Source: Sulfurospirillum arcachonense DSM 9755 (GTDB taxonomy: Bacteria; Campylobacterota; Campylobacteria; Campylobacterales; Sulfurospirillaceae). Taken from it: 64,000 bases of DNA. The position numbers and the translations under genes were made by a program. The stretch covers positions 1 through 64,000 of the forward strand of contig NZ_JFBL01000009.1 of assembly GCF_000597725.1 (NCBI RefSeq), written 5' to 3'. Below, in pieces: positions 10,353 to 58,511 of the stretch (its first letter is position 1; every line of letters begins with the position of its first letter). Under the pieces are notes generated by a model. The model saw only the letters and a list, made by a program, of their open reading frames with translations, did not search any database and was not told the DNA's origin.

Positions 10353-10916
10353 GTGGAAGATAGACAAAGAGAGTATATATATGCTTTTCTTTCTTTGGTA
10401 TTTACAGATATTATGGAAGAGCAATTTATAGAAGAGTTAAAAGAAAATACAGAGTTTTTAGAGATGATATCTGTAGAAGCTCTTGAGTGGTTTCAAAAGA
10501 CTTCTCAAGAGGAGTTGACACAACTATTAAATAGAGATTTTAGCTCTTTGTTTTTGATGAATTCAATTCCAGTAGAATCGTTTGTTATGGATGATAAAGA
10601 TGAGGTACAAGTAGGTCTTCAAAATCCAGTGATGCAGTTTTACTTTTCACATGGGTATGAGTTAAATCTTTTACCTTCTAAAATAAATGCTCCAGATCAC
10701 ATAGCTTTAGAGTGTGCTTTTATGCAAAATTTGGTGCAAAGAAATGAAAAAAAAGTACAAATTAGATTTTTAGAAGAGCACCTTTTAAAATGGGCACCTA
10801 TCTACTTTTTAGGTATCAAAGATATGGCTAAAACACCTTTTTATAGAGATTTATGTGATTTTAGTGCAGAATTTTTGATAGCAGACTATGATTATTTGAA
10901 GAGTGAAGATGTCTAA
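10353..10916 (+). CDS. TorD/DmsD-family molybdoenzyme maturation chaperone
   Basis: A 187-residue cytoplasmic all-helical protein. It shows the TorD-family hallmarks P-D-H-I-A-L-E near residue 115 (usual form P-D-H) and a later E-H-L-L-K-W-A-P motif (usual H-L-x-x-W-x-P). Such chaperones bind the Tat signal of the cognate alpha subunit and hold it until Mo-bisMGD is inserted. Its place in the operon, like DdhD/EbdD/SerD, supports this. The start is GTG 10353, two bases after the previous stop. Its end overlaps the start of the ferredoxin gene. Confidence 0.82.
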   Translation: MEDRQREYIYAFLSLVFTDIMEEQFIEELKENTEFLEMISVEALEWFQKTSQEELTQLLNRDFSSLFLMNSIPVESFVMDDKDEVQVGLQNPVMQFYFSHGYELNLLPSKINAPDHIALECAFMQNLVQRNEKKVQIRFLEEHLLKWAPIYFLGIKDMAKTPFYRDLCDFSAEFLIADYDYLKSEDV

Positions 10917-11949
10917 AGAAGAGTATATACAAAGAGCAGGATTTTTTACTTATGACAGGTTGAGTTGTTTAAGAAATGAGTATGCTCATAATGACTGTAA
11001 AAAATGTTTAGAGATTTGTCCTGAAAATGCTTTTGTCTTTGTTAGAAAAAAATTAACATTAGAAACCAAAAAGTGTACTAGCTGTGGGGTTTGTATTGGT
11101 TCGTGTCCGACAGGTTCTTTGTTTTTAGTAGGACAGAGTGTAGTAAAACCTATACAAAAAATGCTTTATGAAGATAATCCCATGCTTAGTTGTGAAAATC
11201 AGCAATCGTGCCTTGCAAAATATACTCAGTTTGATTATATCACTATGGCACTTGAATCTCAAAAAAGCTTTACATGTAATCTGTTTACATGTAAAGATTG
11301 TGAAATAAATACAAATCAAAAAGTACAGAGTTTTATAGAAAAAAATATAGATGAAGCAAATGTTGTTTTAGAAAAGATTTCAGCGTTAAAAGTGAAAAAA
11401 AGTTTTGAGATAGAAACTAAGCCTTTATTGGCTAGAAGAGCATTTTTTAGAAGTCTAATAAAACCTTTACATGTAAAGGATGAAATAGATTTACATGTAA
11501 AGAGTTTAGATAGAGTCAAAAAGAGTTTAAAAGAGAACCTTTTAGATGTAAATGAAACCGTAATAAATCAAATACTGAGTTTTTCACATCAAAAAAAGAT
11601 TGATGAGAGCTGTACTAATTGTGGGGAGTGTGTAACATTTTGTCCTAGTGAAGCGTTGAATTATGATAAGAAAAAAACAAAAATATTTTTTCAAATGGGT
11701 AAGTGCATAGGGTGTGGGATATGTGAAGATATCTGCAAAACTCAATCGATAAAAAGCCAAAATGTAAAGTTTGATTTGATAGATTTTGCATATGATAAGA
11801 TTGAGGTACTTTGTGAACATGAATTAAGAGTTTGCAAAGTGTGTAAATGTGCTTTTTCTTATAAAAGTGGTGAAGAAATTTGTCAAAGATGTTCAAATTT
11901 TGAGGTAAAAAACTCAAATATGTTGGCTTTGGCTTCTAATATAAAGTAA
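10909..11949 (+). CDS. Cytoplasmic polyferredoxin with extra Cys clusters
   Basis: A 346-residue iron-sulfur protein. Near residues 18-70 lie Cys groups ending in CTSCGVCIGSCPTG. Residues about 225-290 hold two typical 4Fe-4S motifs, CTNCGECVTFCPS and CIGCGICEDIC. The middle (about 92-125) and the C-terminus (CKVCKC, then CQRC) add further Cys pairs resembling zinc ribbons. It has no signal peptide, so it acts inside the cell, perhaps in electron supply for cofactor insertion or enzyme maturation. ATG 10909 has GAAGAG upstream; a GTG at 10903 is the alternative. Odd: it contains three exact and one near copy of TTTACATGTAAA, read as F-T-C-N, F-T-C-K and L-H-V-K. One copy adds Cys residues to the middle section. 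Confidence 0.8.
   Translation: MSKEEYIQRAGFFTYDRLSCLRNEYAHNDCKKCLEICPENAFVFVRKKLTLETKKCTSCGVCIGSCPTGSLFLVGQSVVKPIQKMLYEDNPMLSCENQQSCLAKYTQFDYITMALESQKSFTCNLFTCKDCEINTNQKVQSFIEKNIDEANVVLEKISALKVKKSFEIETKPLLARRAFFRSLIKPLHVKDEIDLHVKSLDRVKKSLKENLLDVNETVINQILSFSHQKKIDESCTNCGECVTFCPSEALNYDKKKTKIFFQMGKCIGCGICEDICKTQSIKSQNVKFDLIDFAYDKIEVLCEHELRVCKVCKCAFSYKSGEEICQRCSNFEVKNSNMLALASNIK
11269..11501. repeat. Cluster of four TTTACATGTAAA motif copies
   Basis: Copies at 11284-11295, 11466-11477 and 11490-11501 are exact; 11269-11280 has one mismatch. All lie inside the polyferredoxin gene in two reading frames. This is the densest cluster in the window. Confidence 0.9.
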
Positions 11950-13269: not shown

Positions 13270-14868
13270 ATGTTTAATGAAAAAGATTTACCACGGCTTA
13301 TAATAGCAACACCGATTATTGCTGTATCTTTATTTGCACTTTTGATTATTTATTTTTTTGTAAACACACAATATAGCAACTTTCATGAAGAAAGTATTGA
13401 ACTTGAAAAAGAGTATATTTTACGACAAAAAAATATTTTAAAAAATGAAAATAAAAAAGTTTTAGATTATATAAATTATCACCGAGAGATAGAGTTAAAA
13501 CGAGCCTATGATAAGTTTCGTGCACTCTCAAAAAGTGGTGTGAAAATAAGTAATGAAACTATTGATAAGTATGAAGAAGAGATTTTAGAAAAATTAAAAA
13601 TACAAGTAATAGACTGGATAGAGAGTGTTCGTTATGAAACCAATGGATATGTTTGGGTTCACGATACTTCTCATCATCTCGTAGCCCATCCTTTTAGAAG
13701 ATCTAGTATTGGACATGATGATACTAATAATACCGATGCTACTGGTGCAAAAATATTTCAAAAGTTTATCAATATAGCAAAACAAAATGAAGAGGGTGGT
13801 TTTCTTGAATACTATTGGGCAAAACCTGAGTTTGAGGCACCTAGAAAAAAAATTGGTTTTTTAGCTTTAGACAAAGAGTGGGGTTGGGTGATAGGAACAG
13901 GTCTTTATGTTGATGATATCGAGTCATCAATTTATGAGAAAAAACTGAAATTAGAACGTAAAATTGATAAATATGTACGGATTATTTTGCTCATTGCTTT
14001 TTCTTTAATGATTCTTGTTGGATTGGTGAGTTACTTGATTTCTAAAAATATTGTTAGAGTATTTACAAGTTACAGAGAAAATGTTTCAAAAAAAGAAGAG
14101 GCCCTCAAAGATTTTAACAAAATACTTAGAATCAGAATCAATGAAGCCTTACGTGAAGCAAAGAAAAAAGACCAAGCACTTCTTCATCAATCACGACTAG
14201 CTCAAATGGGAGAGATGATAAGTATGATTGCTCACCAGTGGAGACAGCCATTGTGTGAAATATCGGGTATATTTATGGAACTTGAAACTGCTGCAAAATT
14301 TGATAAGGCAGATAAGGATTTTATACAAAGAGAATCAAAAGATGGCAATAAACTTATCTCTTATATGTCTAAAACAATAGATGATTTTAGAGATTTTTTC
14401 AAACCTGCCAAAACAAAAAAAGTTTTCTCTTTGAAGGAGGCTTGTGAAGAAGCGATTAGTTTAGCAAGTGCTAGTTTAAAAAGTGAAAATATCATTTTGG
14501 ATTTACATGTAAAAGAAGAGTTGCACACAAGTGGATATAAATCAGAGTTTGCACAAGTTGTTTTGAATTTGATTTTAAATGCAAAAGATGTTTTGATACA
14601 AAGAGCTATTTTAAAACCTACTATTGTTGTAATTATTGATGCAGAAGATGATAAAGCAGTAGTTATCGTGAGTGATAATGGTGGTGGAATTAAAGAAGAT
14701 ATTATACAAAAGATATATGATCCATACTTTAGCACTAAAAAGTCAGCAGGAACGGGACTTGGATTATATATGTCAAAAATGATAATAGAAGAAAAAATGA
14801 GTGGTGAGTTGTCTGTAAGTAATAAAAATGGTGGCGCAAGGTTTGTAGTGAGGGTTTTACATGTATAA
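13270..14868 (+). CDS. Cache-domain sensor histidine kinase
   Basis: A 532-residue membrane kinase. TM1 is at about residues 12-32. A periplasmic single-cache sensor follows (about 33-235) with the motif NGYVWVHDTSHHLVAHP. TM2 is at about 238-260, then a coiled coil. The dimerisation/phosphorylation helix has MIAHQWRQPL (His near 321), and the HATPase domain has N (LNLILNAKD), DNGGGI and GTGLGLYMS. It overlaps the response-regulator gene by 8 bases, a standard pair. Its position after the molybdoenzyme cluster suggests it senses the substrate in the periplasm. No Shine-Dalgarno precedes the ATG. One exact TTTACATGTAAA copy lies at 14502. Confidence 0.9.
   Translation: MFNEKDLPRLIIATPIIAVSLFALLIIYFFVNTQYSNFHEESIELEKEYILRQKNILKNENKKVLDYINYHREIELKRAYDKFRALSKSGVKISNETIDKYEEEILEKLKIQVIDWIESVRYETNGYVWVHDTSHHLVAHPFRRSSIGHDDTNNTDATGAKIFQKFINIAKQNEEGGFLEYYWAKPEFEAPRKKIGFLALDKEWGWVIGTGLYVDDIESSIYEKKLKLERKIDKYVRIILLIAFSLMILVGLVSYLISKNIVRVFTSYRENVSKKEEALKDFNKILRIRINEALREAKKKDQALLHQSRLAQMGEMISMIAHQWRQPLCEISGIFMELETAAKFDKADKDFIQRESKDGNKLISYMSKTIDDFRDFFKPAKTKKVFSLKEACEEAISLASASLKSENIILDLHVKEELHTSGYKSEFAQVVLNLILNAKDVLIQRAILKPTIVVIIDAEDDKAVVIVSDNGGGIKEDIIQKIYDPYFSTKKSAGTGLGLYMSKMIIEEKMSGELSVSNKNGGARFVVRVLHV
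14502..14513. repeat. TTTACATGTAAA motif copy
   Basis: Exact copy inside the kinase gene, read D-L-H-V-K-E. A one-mismatch copy at 14856-14867 spans the start codon of the next gene. Confidence 0.9.
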
Positions 14869-18123: not shown

Positions 18124-19447
18124 TCCGCTTATTTTATCTGTTGTTTTGATAGGCATAATGTTCTTTTTCCTGTTGAGTTCAATTTGGATTGGCTCAGCTC
18201 TTATGCTTACAGGACTTGCGGGAATGTTTTTGTTTGAACATAACCTTCCACCTACTATAAGTCTTTTTCAAAAAGCAGGAGATTTATTGGCTGGGAGTTT
18301 GTATGACTCTTTAAACTCATGGTCATTAGCCGCACTTCCTATGTTTATTTTGATGGGGGAGATATTGTACCGCTCTTCTATATCCAATAAACTGCTCAAT
18401 GGTCTTATGCCATGGCTTTCAAAAGTCCCTGGGCGTCTTTTACATGTAAATGTTGCGGCTTGTTCACTTTTTGCTGCAGTTTCAGGCTCTTCAGCGGCTA
18501 CTACAGCAACTGTTGGAAAGATAACTCTAGGAGAACTTAAAGCTCGTGGATATAGTAAAAAACTAGCACTAGGTTCACTTGCAGGTAGTGGAACATTGGG
18601 ATTTTTAATTCCTCCTAGTTTGATTATGATTATTTATGGTGTTTTATCAGATGTTTCTATTGGAAAACTTTTTATAGCTGGAGTTTTTCCAGGGCTTTTA
18701 TTGGCAACTTCATACTCAGTGTATATCATGATAGTCTCTTATTTTGATAAAACGACAGTTCCAGCACAAGAGGAAGTTTTTACTTTAAAAGAGAAACTTT
18801 TATCTATTAAAGATTTATTACCTATATTTTCTTTAATTGGTTTAGTTCTTGGAAGTATTTATGGAGGATTTGCTACACCAACTGAAGCTGCTGCTTTAGG
18901 AGTATTAGGTTCTATTGTTTTGGCTATTTATTTTAAAAGTTTTAACTTAGAGATTTTTCAAGAGGCTCTTTTTAATTCAGTGAAAACTACAGTTATGATT
19001 AGTTTTATTATTGCTGGTGCTGGATTTTTATCTCAAGTTGTTGGTTTTTTAGGGATTGCAAGAGCAATTAGTGAGTTTATTGGTGGGCTTGGGCTTTCTC
19101 CATATGTACTTATTTTTGTAATTGGACTGATGTATATAGTTTTAGGAATGATACTTGATGGAATTTCAATTGTAGTTATGACTTTGCCTATTGTATTGCC
19201 TATTATTACTATGGCTGGTTTTGATGCTTTATGGTTTGGTATATTTTTAGTGTTTATGGTGGAGCTTTCACAAATAACACCGCCTGTTGGATTTTCTCTG
19301 TTTGTCATACAAAGTATTTCTGGTGAAAAAATAAGTTATATTTTAAAAGCAACTTTCCCATTTTTCATTATTATGATTTTTATTGTTATGATTGTAACTA
19401 TATTCCCTGAAGTAGCTACATATTTACCTGCTAAAATGGTGGAATAA
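18113..19447 (+). CDS. dctM: TRAP transporter large permease, DctM type
   Basis: A 444-residue polytopic inner-membrane protein, the ion-coupled translocation subunit. Motifs: GSSAATTATVGKITL near residue 125, LAGSGTLGFLIPPSL and GMILDGISIVVMTLPIVLP near 345. ATG 18113 is chosen because AAAGGA lies seven bases upstream; an ATG 36 bases earlier lies deep inside dctQ. An exact TTTACATGTAAA copy at 18439 encodes the conserved L-H-V-N of this family, showing that the motif can sit where the protein already allows it. Confidence 0.92.
   Translation: MIADPLILSVVLIGIMFFFLLSSIWIGSALMLTGLAGMFLFEHNLPPTISLFQKAGDLLAGSLYDSLNSWSLAALPMFILMGEILYRSSISNKLLNGLMPWLSKVPGRLLHVNVAACSLFAAVSGSSAATTATVGKITLGELKARGYSKKLALGSLAGSGTLGFLIPPSLIMIIYGVLSDVSIGKLFIAGVFPGLLLATSYSVYIMIVSYFDKTTVPAQEEVFTLKEKLLSIKDLLPIFSLIGLVLGSIYGGFATPTEAAALGVLGSIVLAIYFKSFNLEIFQEALFNSVKTTVMISFIIAGAGFLSQVVGFLGIARAISEFIGGLGLSPYVLIFVIGLMYIVLGMILDGISIVVMTLPIVLPIITMAGFDALWFGIFLVFMVELSQITPPVGFSLFVIQSISGEKISYILKATFPFFIIMIFIVMIVTIFPEVATYLPAKMVE
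18439..18450. repeat. TTTACATGTAAA motif copy
   Basis: Exact copy inside dctM, reading L-L-H-V-N. A one-mismatch form (TTTACATATAAA) lies at 18091-18102 near the end of dctQ. Confidence 0.9.
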
Positions 19448-54033: not shown

Positions 54034-55017
54034 ATGACACACCCTAATGTTGAACTATTTGAATCAGGAAAATCTTTACCGATTATTCCTTCATGTGAGC
54101 ATTTTACTGGCAGTGAAAAGCTTATTGGAAAAGCATATGAATTACAAAAAAAACTAGGACCAATTTTTGATATAACTTGTGATTGTGAAGATGGTGCACA
54201 AGTTGGTGCAGAAGAACAACACGCTAGGATGGTTGTTCGTATGATAAATTCTGAGGCTAATCTGTATGGGATGGCTGGAGTGCGTATACATGATTATTCA
54301 AATATAAATTGGAAACAAGATGTTGATATCTTGGTTCCTGGTGCTGGTGAAAAACTCTCATATATAACTCTTCCAAAAGCGACAGCTTATGAAGAAGCAA
54401 AAGAACAAATAGAGTATATCCAGACAATATGTAAAAAAGAAGGTATAGCAAGAGAAATACCAATCCATATTTTGATAGAAACACATGGGGCACTAAGAGA
54501 TGTTGAGCAGCTTGCAACTCTTCCTTGGCTTCAAGTACTTGATTTTGGTTTGATGGATTTTGTCTCAGGCTACCAAGGGGCAATCCCTGCTGGTAATATG
54601 AGAAGTCCAGGACAGTTTGAGCATAAGTTAATAAGTAGTGCAAAAGCAAAAGTCACGCAAGCCGCACTCTCAAATCATGTTATCCCAGCTCATAATGTAA
54701 CACTTGATTTAAAAAATGCATATCAAACTTATGAAGATGCATACAGAGCAAAAAATGAGTTTGGTTTTATGAGAATGTGGAGTATATACCCAACACAAAT
54801 CACCGCTATAGTAGATGCCATGAAACCAGATTTTACTGAAGTAGAAGATGCAGGTAATATACTCATAGCAGCACAAAATGCAGCATGGGGACCAATCCAA
54901 TATGCCGGAGAACTACATGATCGCGCAACTTATAGATACTTTTGGGAGTTAGTACAGCGCGCCCACTTTAGTGGACAAAAACTTAGTGAAGAGGTAAATA
55001 AGAGGTTTTTTGCTTAG
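54034..55017 (+). CDS. CoA-ester lyase, malyl-/methylmalyl-CoA lyase-like
   Basis: A 327-residue HpcH/HpaI-superfamily enzyme. Motifs: DITCDCEDGAQVGAEEQHAR near residue 48 (Mg site), GVRIHDYSN near 84, YITLPKATAYEEA near 108, ILIETHGALRDVEQLATLP near 146 (catalytic Glu/Asp) and LDFGLMDFVSGYQGAIPAGN near 168. This is the lyase type that accompanies mesaconyl-CoA hydratase in other proteobacteria. It cleaves malyl- or methylmalyl-CoA to glyoxylate plus acetyl- or propionyl-CoA; citramalyl-CoA to pyruvate and acetyl-CoA is an alternative. AGGA precedes the ATG, and a terminator hairpin follows. Confidence 0.86.
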   Translation: MTHPNVELFESGKSLPIIPSCEHFTGSEKLIGKAYELQKKLGPIFDITCDCEDGAQVGAEEQHARMVVRMINSEANLYGMAGVRIHDYSNINWKQDVDILVPGAGEKLSYITLPKATAYEEAKEQIEYIQTICKKEGIAREIPIHILIETHGALRDVEQLATLPWLQVLDFGLMDFVSGYQGAIPAGNMRSPGQFEHKLISSAKAKVTQAALSNHVIPAHNVTLDLKNAYQTYEDAYRAKNEFGFMRMWSIYPTQITAIVDAMKPDFTEVEDAGNILIAAQNAAWGPIQYAGELHDRATYRYFWELVQRAHFSGQKLSEEVNKRFFA

Positions 55018-55021
55018 ATTC

Positions 55022-55059
55022 TTTACATGTAAGGCTGTAGGGTATTTACAGTCTTACAT
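55022..55059. terminator. Terminator hairpin containing a TTTACATGTAAA-type motif
   Basis: ATGTAAGGCTGTA (55027-55039) pairs with TACAGTCTTACAT (55047-55059) as 13 bp with one G-U, followed by a T/G-rich run. The left arm is the end of a one-mismatch motif copy at 55022-55033. It lies between the lyase operon and a convergent small gene. Confidence 0.75.
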
Positions 55060-57329: not shown

Positions 57330-57959
57330 ATGAATCAAAATACAATGAGTCGTGATTCTAAATCACGATTATATGGAGCACTTAAAACCTTGCAAAAAGG
57401 TAATGGTGTGATTGTTATGGATGATTATAACAGAGAAAATGAAGCTGATATAATCTTTTCTGCCCAAAGTCTAACAAAAGAACAAATGGCACTTCTTATA
57501 AGGGAGTGTAGTGGTATAGTTTGTTTGTGTCTTCCTCATGAAAAAGTTGATGAACTCCAACTCCCAATGATGGTTCAAAATAACAACTCAAAATACGAAA
57601 CACCTTTTACTGTTTCAATCGAATCAAAAGATAATGTTACAACAGGAGTATCAGCTCAAGATAGAGTAACTACAATACAATCTGCGATTTCTGCTGATGG
57701 TGTTTCTAAAATTGTTTCTCCTGGACATGTATTTCCTTTAAGAGCCAATAAAGATGGGGTATTAGGAAGAGCAGGGCATACGGAATCTGGTATTGATTTG
57801 ATGAAATTAGCCAATTTAGAGCCTTATGCAGTATTGTGTGAAATAACAAATCCTGATGGAACAATGGCAAAAGCAAATGAGATTAAAGTATTTGCACAAA
57901 AACATTCTATGCCAATTATCAGTGTTCAAGATATCATAGAGTATAGAAAAGGACAATAA
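57330..57959 (+). CDS. ribB: 3,4-dihydroxy-2-butanone 4-phosphate synthase
   Basis: A 209-residue enzyme that makes the four-carbon precursor of riboflavin from ribulose 5-phosphate. Seen: VIVMDDYNRENEADIIFSAQ near residue 28 (acidic Mg site), RECSGIVCLCLP near 61, TTGVSAQDRVTTI near 107, SPGHVFPLRA near 132 and GRAGHTESGIDLMKLA near 147. It stands alone, not fused to a RibA domain. The FMN riboswitch upstream gives feedback by FMN. The ribosome site AAAGG is close to the ATG. Confidence 0.96.
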   Translation: MNQNTMSRDSKSRLYGALKTLQKGNGVIVMDDYNRENEADIIFSAQSLTKEQMALLIRECSGIVCLCLPHEKVDELQLPMMVQNNNSKYETPFTVSIESKDNVTTGVSAQDRVTTIQSAISADGVSKIVSPGHVFPLRANKDGVLGRAGHTESGIDLMKLANLEPYAVLCEITNPDGTMAKANEIKVFAQKHSMPIISVQDIIEYRKGQ

Positions 57960-57966
57960 AACAGTT

Positions 57967-58000
57967 TTTACATGTAAAGCAAAAAAGCTTTACATGTAAA
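57967..58000 (+). terminator. Terminator made of two facing TTTACATGTAAA copies
   Basis: TTTACATGTAAAGC (57967-57980) and GCTTTACATGTAAA (57987-58000) pair perfectly over 14 bp around an AAAAAA loop, followed by TGTTTTC. Both arms are exact motif copies. It ends the ribB transcript 7 bases after the stop codon. Confidence 0.85.
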
Positions 58001-58025
58001 TGTTTTCATATGCTATACTAGCAGG

Positions 58026-58511
58026 ATGAAACAAAAACAACTTTTATTTACTGATGGTAGTGTTAATCCTCAACAAAATATAGGTTTTGGGGCGTATTTA
58101 CATGTAAGAGAAAATGATATTTACAATGAGTCTTTAAAACACGATATAAAGCTTAAAAAATTTGAAAATACTTCTTCAACGAAATTAGAATTAGAAACTT
58201 TATTGTGGGCTTTAAATGAGATAAGTATAGAAGAATCTGAGTTGATTGTTTTTACTGATTGTCAAAATATTTTAGGTTTACCAGCCAGACGTGAAAAGTT
58301 TGAAAAAAACAGTTATTTAAGTGCTAAAAACAAAAAAATATCTAACCATGAACTCTATAAAGAATTCTATAAAATTACAGATTTATTGCAATGTCAATTT
58401 ATTAAAATCAAAGGACATAAGCCCAAAAAGGATAAAGATAATAGAGATAAGTTTTTTACACTTGTGGATAGGGCATCAAGAAATGCACTAAGAGAGGAAC
58501 TTAAAACATAA
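58026..58511 (+). CDS. RNase H-like protein
   Basis: A 161-residue protein with the RNase HI fold. The four acidic catalytic residues are visible: T-D-G-S near residue 9, the Glu in KLELETLLWAL near 53, F-T-D-C-Q near 80, and V-D-R-A-S-R-N-A near 149. The R-K-rich handle region is short. It may cleave RNA in RNA-DNA hybrids, but it differs enough from RnhA that a paralogue role is possible. A one-mismatch motif copy at 58097 reads Y-L-H-V-R-E. AGCAGG lies just before the ATG. Confidence 0.85.
   Translation: MKQKQLLFTDGSVNPQQNIGFGAYLHVRENDIYNESLKHDIKLKKFENTSSTKLELETLLWALNEISIEESELIVFTDCQNILGLPARREKFEKNSYLSAKNKKISNHELYKEFYKITDLLQCQFIKIKGHKPKKDKDNRDKFFTLVDRASRNALREELKT

Follow-up and report, generated by a model that had tools for sequence, protein, structure and literature searches.

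The closest described counterparts of the repeated DNA word analyzed here are the uptake sequences (DUS) of the Neisseriaceae (GCCGTCTGAA / ATGCCGTCTGAA), which have a strict core of 10-12 bases with softer flanks, occur in hundreds to thousands of copies, are enriched between genes, differ as dialects within the family and, as close pairs, form hairpins past stop codons (PMC1852404, PMC2397512, PMC12616744). Uptake words were reported in terminators at a level of ~55% in Neisseria, and paired copies at 17-29% in Pasteurellaceae (Kingsford et al., PMC1852404). The USS of the Pasteurellaceae (AAGTGCGGT) has been described as not palindromic (PMC12616744). The closest palindromic repeated word is that of cyanobacteria, HIP1 (GCGATCGC), which is over-represented genome-wide (PMC4390886). 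In the same order as Sulfurospirillum, C. jejuni discriminates self DNA by sequence during T2SS/T4P-ComEC uptake, relying on a short and common motif, RAATTY, that is methylated by CtsM (PMC8468864). In our searches, the few papers containing the string of the 12-mer TTTACATGTAAA or of its 10-base core TTACATGTAA were on unrelated subjects, and neither string was presented in their titles and abstracts as a word repeated in bacteria. The searches also yielded no paper dealing with transformation, or with uptake words, in Sulfurospirillum and no report of a DUS/USS-like self-recognition word for the Campylobacterota. All DUS and USS known to us are asymmetric, and we know of uptake words from two proteobacterial families only.

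The Sulfurospirillum word resembles the DUS in each of the features listed above, and it resembles the USS in its paired copies in probable terminators and in its copy number, which is near that of the USS in word-rich Sulfurospirillum genomes. Unlike the DUS, it is palindromic, so that a single copy has no orientation and can be the apex of a hairpin; it also belongs to another phylum, its pairs make up only a minor part of the terminators, and its role in uptake is a candidate one. The asymmetric USS carries an extended A/T-rich flank, whereas the word here lacks an extended periodic one; HIP1 is a methylase-linked octamer, whereas the word here is 10-14 bp long and shows no enrichment of its inner hexamer on its own; and the C. 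jejuni system, in contrast to an amplified long word, uses its short methylated motif.

Anatomy of the hairpin after ribB

The window is the whole stretch of DNA that was analyzed, 64,000 nucleotides from Sulfurospirillum arcachonense DSM 9755. Within it, the ribB gene for 3,4-dihydroxy-2-butanone 4-phosphate synthase (57330-57959, plus strand; 209 aa; Pfam PF00926, E=2.9e-74) has its TAA stop codon at 57957-57959 and ends at a hairpin whose stem begins 8 nt past that stop. One copy of the palindrome TTTACATGTAAA (57967-57978) lies in the 5' arm and a second (57989-58000) in the 3' arm, and the spacer between them consists of GC (57979-57980), a loop of AAAAAA (57981-57986) and GC (57987-57988). 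In the resulting stem, 57967-57980 pairs without mismatch to 57987-58000 over 14 bp, four of them G-C, around a 6-nt loop, and the original prediction of two exact, GC-extended copies around six A after the ribB stop was exact in both the sequence and the folds. The outer AACA (57960-57963) is also able to pair with TGTT (58001-58004). In RNA folds the element reached -17.6 kcal/mol (z = -7.3), with 0 of 200 shuffles equally stable, and -23.6 kcal/mol (z = -5.9) when its flanks were included. Only four of the 14 pairs are G-C, in a genome of 31% GC, and this stability comes from the length of the stem. A G-C-rich stem is typical of intrinsic terminators, although it is not obligatory. Because the word is a palindrome, two copies will always "face" each other and their orientation is uninformative, a caution that had accompanied the prediction and that holds for this word, its own reverse complement. 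The inner G...C extension of the stem is explained in part by the flank consensus of the word itself, given that ~63% of copies have C before and G after.

The stem is followed by TGTTTT (58001-58006, plus strand), an imperfect U-tract that is short and interrupted (TGTTTTCAT). Further downstream, TGcTATACT (58011-58019, plus strand) can be read by eye as a putative extended -10-like element of an RNase H gene, and the promoter scan made no call there; the RNase H-domain ORF itself (58026-58511, plus strand; 161 aa; PF00075, E=6e-14) contains the near-word TTTACATGTAAG at 58097-58108. The hairpin thus lies between the ribB stop and the TGcTATACT element. An intrinsic terminator calls for a stable hairpin close behind the stop codon, as is present here, and the terminator-like scan of both strands, together with the folds, places a predicted intrinsic terminator of ribB at 57967-58000 on the plus strand. 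The feature is probably an intrinsic (Rho-independent-type) terminator.

In the nearest relative by ribB (L016, 82% identity), the gene is followed by another pair, TTTACATGTAAG-gctttta-CTTACATGTAAA. Here the last base pair of the word, A-T in S. arcachonense, has become G-C through a change in each arm, which leaves a stem of 13 bp. This compensated change is weak evidence alone because the pairs in the two genomes could be of independent origin. Several Sulfurospirillum ribB genes (L022, L024 and L025) are followed by unrelated strong hairpins. Taken with the pair of L016, these suggest that the gene-end hairpin itself has been retained after ribB, and that the word is one means of making it. 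Arcobacteraceae relatives with similar ribB have two word copies.

Copy number, consensus and placement of the word

The genome of S. arcachonense (2.66 Mb) contains 283 exact copies of TTTACATGTAAA and none of the reversed control word, and 567 copies of the core TTACATGTAA; across genomes, the reversed controls for the 12-mer and the core gave 0-9 copies. In the window there are 24 sites with at most one mismatch to the 12-mer, relative to 1.0 expected. We also sampled 16 stretches of at most 20 kb plus the window, in which genes were called simply as longest ORFs. Most of these stretches had been selected for the word copies or pairs in them, and word densities were therefore taken from whole-genome counts only. 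Among all 12-mers in the 381 kb sampled, the word ranked first in frequency, and the aligned copies gave the full consensus yCTTTACATGTAAAGr, beyond which, ~2 bases outside the 12-mer, no clear conservation was found in those copies. The word can therefore be described as a strict core with soft flanks. The amplified unit is the long word, based on the logic that its inner hexamer ACATGT is not in excess outside TACATGTA (51 versus 93 for the reversed control in this genome, and 24 versus 26 in another Sulfurospirillum genome, G031). In S. diekertiae, the gaps between words in the first 424 kb (CV 1.2) showed no greater regularity than random placement.

In the sampled stretches, 44 of 65 exact copies were inside genes, confined to the two stop-free frames (34 reading L-H-V-K, 10 reading F-T-C-K and 0 in the frame that reads TAA). 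A further 20 of the 65 (~31%) were intergenic, versus only ~6% of the sequence called non-coding by the simple ORF caller. Intergenic enrichment is ~4- to 5-fold, and most copies (60-75%) are still in genes. Examples in the window include a copy at 11284-11295 in a ferredoxin-domain ORF (10903-11949), which has more exact copies at 11466 and 11490, another at 14502-14513 in a histidine-kinase ORF, and others within genes at 18439, 22931, 42228 and 43022. The densest cluster of the window, at 11269-11552 in the ferredoxin-domain ORF, has three exact and two one-mismatch copies in 284 bases.

These data support the 12-mer as a real signal and a functional genome-wide word. The original prediction that the ribB pair strengthens this view is supported as regards the word, but the main support comes from the genome-wide counts and not from that pair.

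Close pairs at gene ends

To relate the word to gene ends, a close pair was defined as two copies within 30 nt, and such pairs were listed genome-wide relative to stop codons. Seven pairs of the exact 12-mer were identified, versus ~1 expected from random placement of the 283 copies (hand calculation); five of these were intergenic, all directly after a stop codon, and two were in genes. For the 10-mer core there were 29 pairs, versus ~3.4 expected for 567 randomly placed copies (hand calculation), and 20 of the 29 were intergenic. Eighteen of these 20 started at most 15 nt past a stop, compared with 18.2% of random non-coding placements (binomial ~1e-11, hand calculation), and 11 of the 20 were between convergent genes. 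A similar distribution was apparent in a second Sulfurospirillum genome, G032, in which 35 of 45 pairs were intergenic and 27 of those 35 were at most 15 nt past a stop, versus 17.3% expected from a null derived from G031. The expected link between motif pairs and gene ends was therefore found in both genomes.

The pairs at gene ends also differ in structure from those in genes. A loop of 3-9 nt with a stem of at least 12 was present in 17 of 20 intergenic versus one of nine in-gene pairs in S. arcachonense, and in 23 of 35 versus one of 10 in G032. Mean folding energies were -15.4 kcal/mol for gene-end and -9.7 kcal/mol for in-gene pairs in this genome, and -13.8 and -11.1 kcal/mol, respectively, in G032. 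As a class, gene-end pairs are followed by T at a frequency of 0.5-0.6 at 4-8 nt past the core, and a recurrent pair design is TTACATGTAAGGATTTTTCCTTACATGTAA. Short loops, stable stems and T-rich tails bear out the terminator anatomy that had been proposed.

In a less biased sample, consisting of the sequences after 221 gene ends, word pairs accounted for two of 31 terminator-like hairpins, and they are therefore a minor terminator class here. The likeness to the paired uptake words of Neisseria and Haemophilus, which had been invoked for the ribB site, agrees with published work (PMC1852404, PMC12616744), but it goes only part of the way: 2/31 compares with 55% in Neisseria, and a palindromic word differs in kind from the asymmetric DUS and USS. 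The window has a second word-based hairpin (55022-55059, plus strand), identified by the word and terminator-like scans, in which the near-word TTTACATGTAAG pairs with a degenerate partner (...CAGTCTTACAT) ~5 nt past the stop of an HpcH/HpaI-domain ORF (54034-55017), with a T-rich tail. This is possibly a half-decayed or half-formed word pair.

In G031, single copies of the word were also observed at the tip of hairpins that have G-C arms and directly follow stops (L182, which is G031:C1:800001-820000, at ~2954, 5391 and 9716, and L180 at ~18410), for example GGAGCTTTACATGTAAAGCTCC, an arrangement that is impossible for an asymmetric uptake word. Such single-word hairpins with extended G-C arms were clear in G031 (p = 0.001), with no clear signal in S. 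arcachonense or G032, and as such we do not claim them as general.

Distribution among relatives and replicons

The word is unevenly distributed within the Sulfurospirillaceae (f1), the family that includes Sulfurospirillum and the S. arcachonense genome. The exact 12-mer is present in up to 792 copies per genome in Sulfurospirillum and in 283-310 in S. arcachonense and its nearest relative, and it is no more frequent than expected by chance in one genus, g5, and in a handful of scattered species; the core reaches 1,496 copies per genome in Sulfurospirillum. In two other families of the order there are isolated word-rich genomes, with 1,059 core copies in G393 (f11) and 380, 367, 354 and 340 in G422, G195, G412 and G205 (f17), and most relatives of these genomes have 0-10. 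The flank dialect CTTACATGTAAG is preferred in G195. A word-poor Sulfurospirillum, G016, has 49 core copies in 2.6 Mb, nine of which are within 60 kb sampled (L186-L188), and its remaining words look clustered, as if in imported or relic stretches.

Plasmids provided a comparison with DNA of foreign type. The S. diekertiae plasmid NZ_CP059996.1 (39.9 kb), which is the second contig of G007 (first 20 kb identical at 100%), had no copies of the 12-mer versus ~11 expected (Poisson 1e-5). The same plasmid (L193 and L194) had 14 copies of the inner octamer TACATGTA versus two of the reversed control, and it may carry a looser form of the word. In pSulSP (NZ_CP118374.1; L219 and L220), a 45-kb backbone stretch of replication and mobile functions had no words, and the cobalamin/reductive-dehalogenase cluster had eight; words in the cluster and none in the backbone suggest that the cluster came from a chromosome. 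In the few replicons tested, the word is depleted in recently acquired DNA.

ComEC was identified in 37 of 38 good genomes of the family and T2SSF, the T2SS/T4P platform protein, in all 38. Both were equally present in word-rich and word-poor genomes; competence genes therefore do not predict the word and were rejected as discriminators between the two groups.

Discussion

We favor the view that the ribB feature is an intrinsic terminator built from two copies of a genome-wide palindromic word that acts like a DNA uptake sequence, and we consider this reading of the whole locus reasonably likely. That the word is related to uptake at all, a claim made by analogy, may be put at about even chances. 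When RNA polymerase moves past the ribB stop, the RNA would fold into the 14-bp hairpin and transcription would stop at the U-rich tail TGTTTT that follows, which would insulate the RNase H gene, whose TGcTATACT-like promoter would start downstream. The word itself would exist for another reason: it would label chromosomal DNA as the cell's own, for import through the type IV pilus/ComEC competence machinery, in the manner of the DUS and USS, and would accumulate wherever it is tolerated. Where two copies happened to land beside a stop, they would be recruited and kept as a terminator.

An uptake word for self-recognition is the best reading of a profile that comprises DUS/USS-like copy number, a strict core with soft flanks, dialects, gene-end pairs that form hairpins and absence from foreign-type DNA. 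The over-represented short words of the DUS/USS type, with hundreds to thousands of copies, are matched here, whereas their asymmetry is not found in the palindromic TTTACATGTAAA. Other points that speak against the favored view are the A-T-rich stem and the short, interrupted U-tract after ribB, the small part that word pairs play among the terminator-like hairpins sampled, and the presence of ComEC and T2SSF in word-poor as well as word-rich genomes. Since the asymmetry is missing and the uptake role is only a candidate one, we describe the feature as a DUS-pair-like terminator and do not file it as a DUS.

The alternative that survives best, although we regard it as unlikely, is that the word is the site of a homodimeric DNA-binding protein (a nucleoid, repair or segregation factor or a global regulator) and that the gene-end pairs are operators with two sites, or hairpins that form incidentally. 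Sites for homodimers usually take the shape of a palindrome like this one of 14 bp; the perfect 14-bp dyad with its strict core and soft flanks fits, and patchy phyletic presence could track a protein that was gained or lost. However, hundreds to ~1,500 copies, 60-75% of them in genes, are too many for a classical operator, and the pairs cluster past stops with hairpin-type loops and T-tails, not upstream of starts. The contrast on pSulSP between a backbone without words and a native cluster with them also points away from a binding site and toward a mark acquired in the chromosome.

Less likely again is a HIP1-like iterated palindrome that an orphan DNA methyltransferase would maintain by acting on an inner part, for example ACATGT or CATG, with a role in repair, recombination or epigenetics and with hairpins that are incidental. 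Like HIP1, the word is an over-represented palindrome in and between genes. HIP1 is palindromic, massively repeated and tied to a methyltransferase (PMC4390886), and the CtsM-methylated motif of C. jejuni has a part in uptake (PMC8468864), such that methylation and uptake could be combined here. Nevertheless, the lack of excess of ACATGT outside TACATGTA led us to reject a methylase hexamer as the driver, and the amplified word is longer than usual methylase targets. Moreover, HIP1 is not known to us as pairs forming gene-end hairpins.

It is also improbable, by a small margin more so, that the hairpin does not terminate transcription and is instead a 3'-end stabilizer or RNA-processing signal, or that the second copy supplies the -35 element of an RNase H promoter (TTTACA at 57989-57994, 19 nt before TATACT). 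The extended -10-like TGcTATACT, close to the ORF start at 58026, would suit a promoter, but a 19-nt spacing is long and the scan made no call; a promoter would be needless for the 11 of 20 pairs between convergent genes, and the stems have T-rich tails. A dispersed mobile repeat (REP- or MITE-like) with inverted copies past genes by chance would account for the high copy number and intergenic enrichment, but is disfavored as very improbable because conservation ends ~2 bases outside the 12-mer and the in-gene copies use only stop-free frames (34 LHVK, 10 FTCK), from which it follows that the words arose in place by point change and drift and not by insertion.

Returning to the uptake reading, we suggest tentatively, and at somewhat less than even odds, that a so far unreported palindromic uptake word, with the core TTACATGTAA and flank dialects, is carried by the Sulfurospirillaceae and, in a patchy manner, by other Campylobacterales; the word would be read by a dimeric or otherwise symmetric receptor and reused pairwise in gene-end terminators. 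To our knowledge, it would be the first word of the DUS/USS type outside the Neisseriaceae and Pasteurellaceae and the first palindromic one. If this is true, an independent palindromic uptake word in the Campylobacterota, with word-rich beside word-poor species and dialects between families, would bear on the origin and loss of such words and of their receptors, and the reuse of a self-marking word as terminators would have arisen separately from the known cases. It would also offer a possible route for the genetic transformation of dehalogenating Sulfurospirillum.
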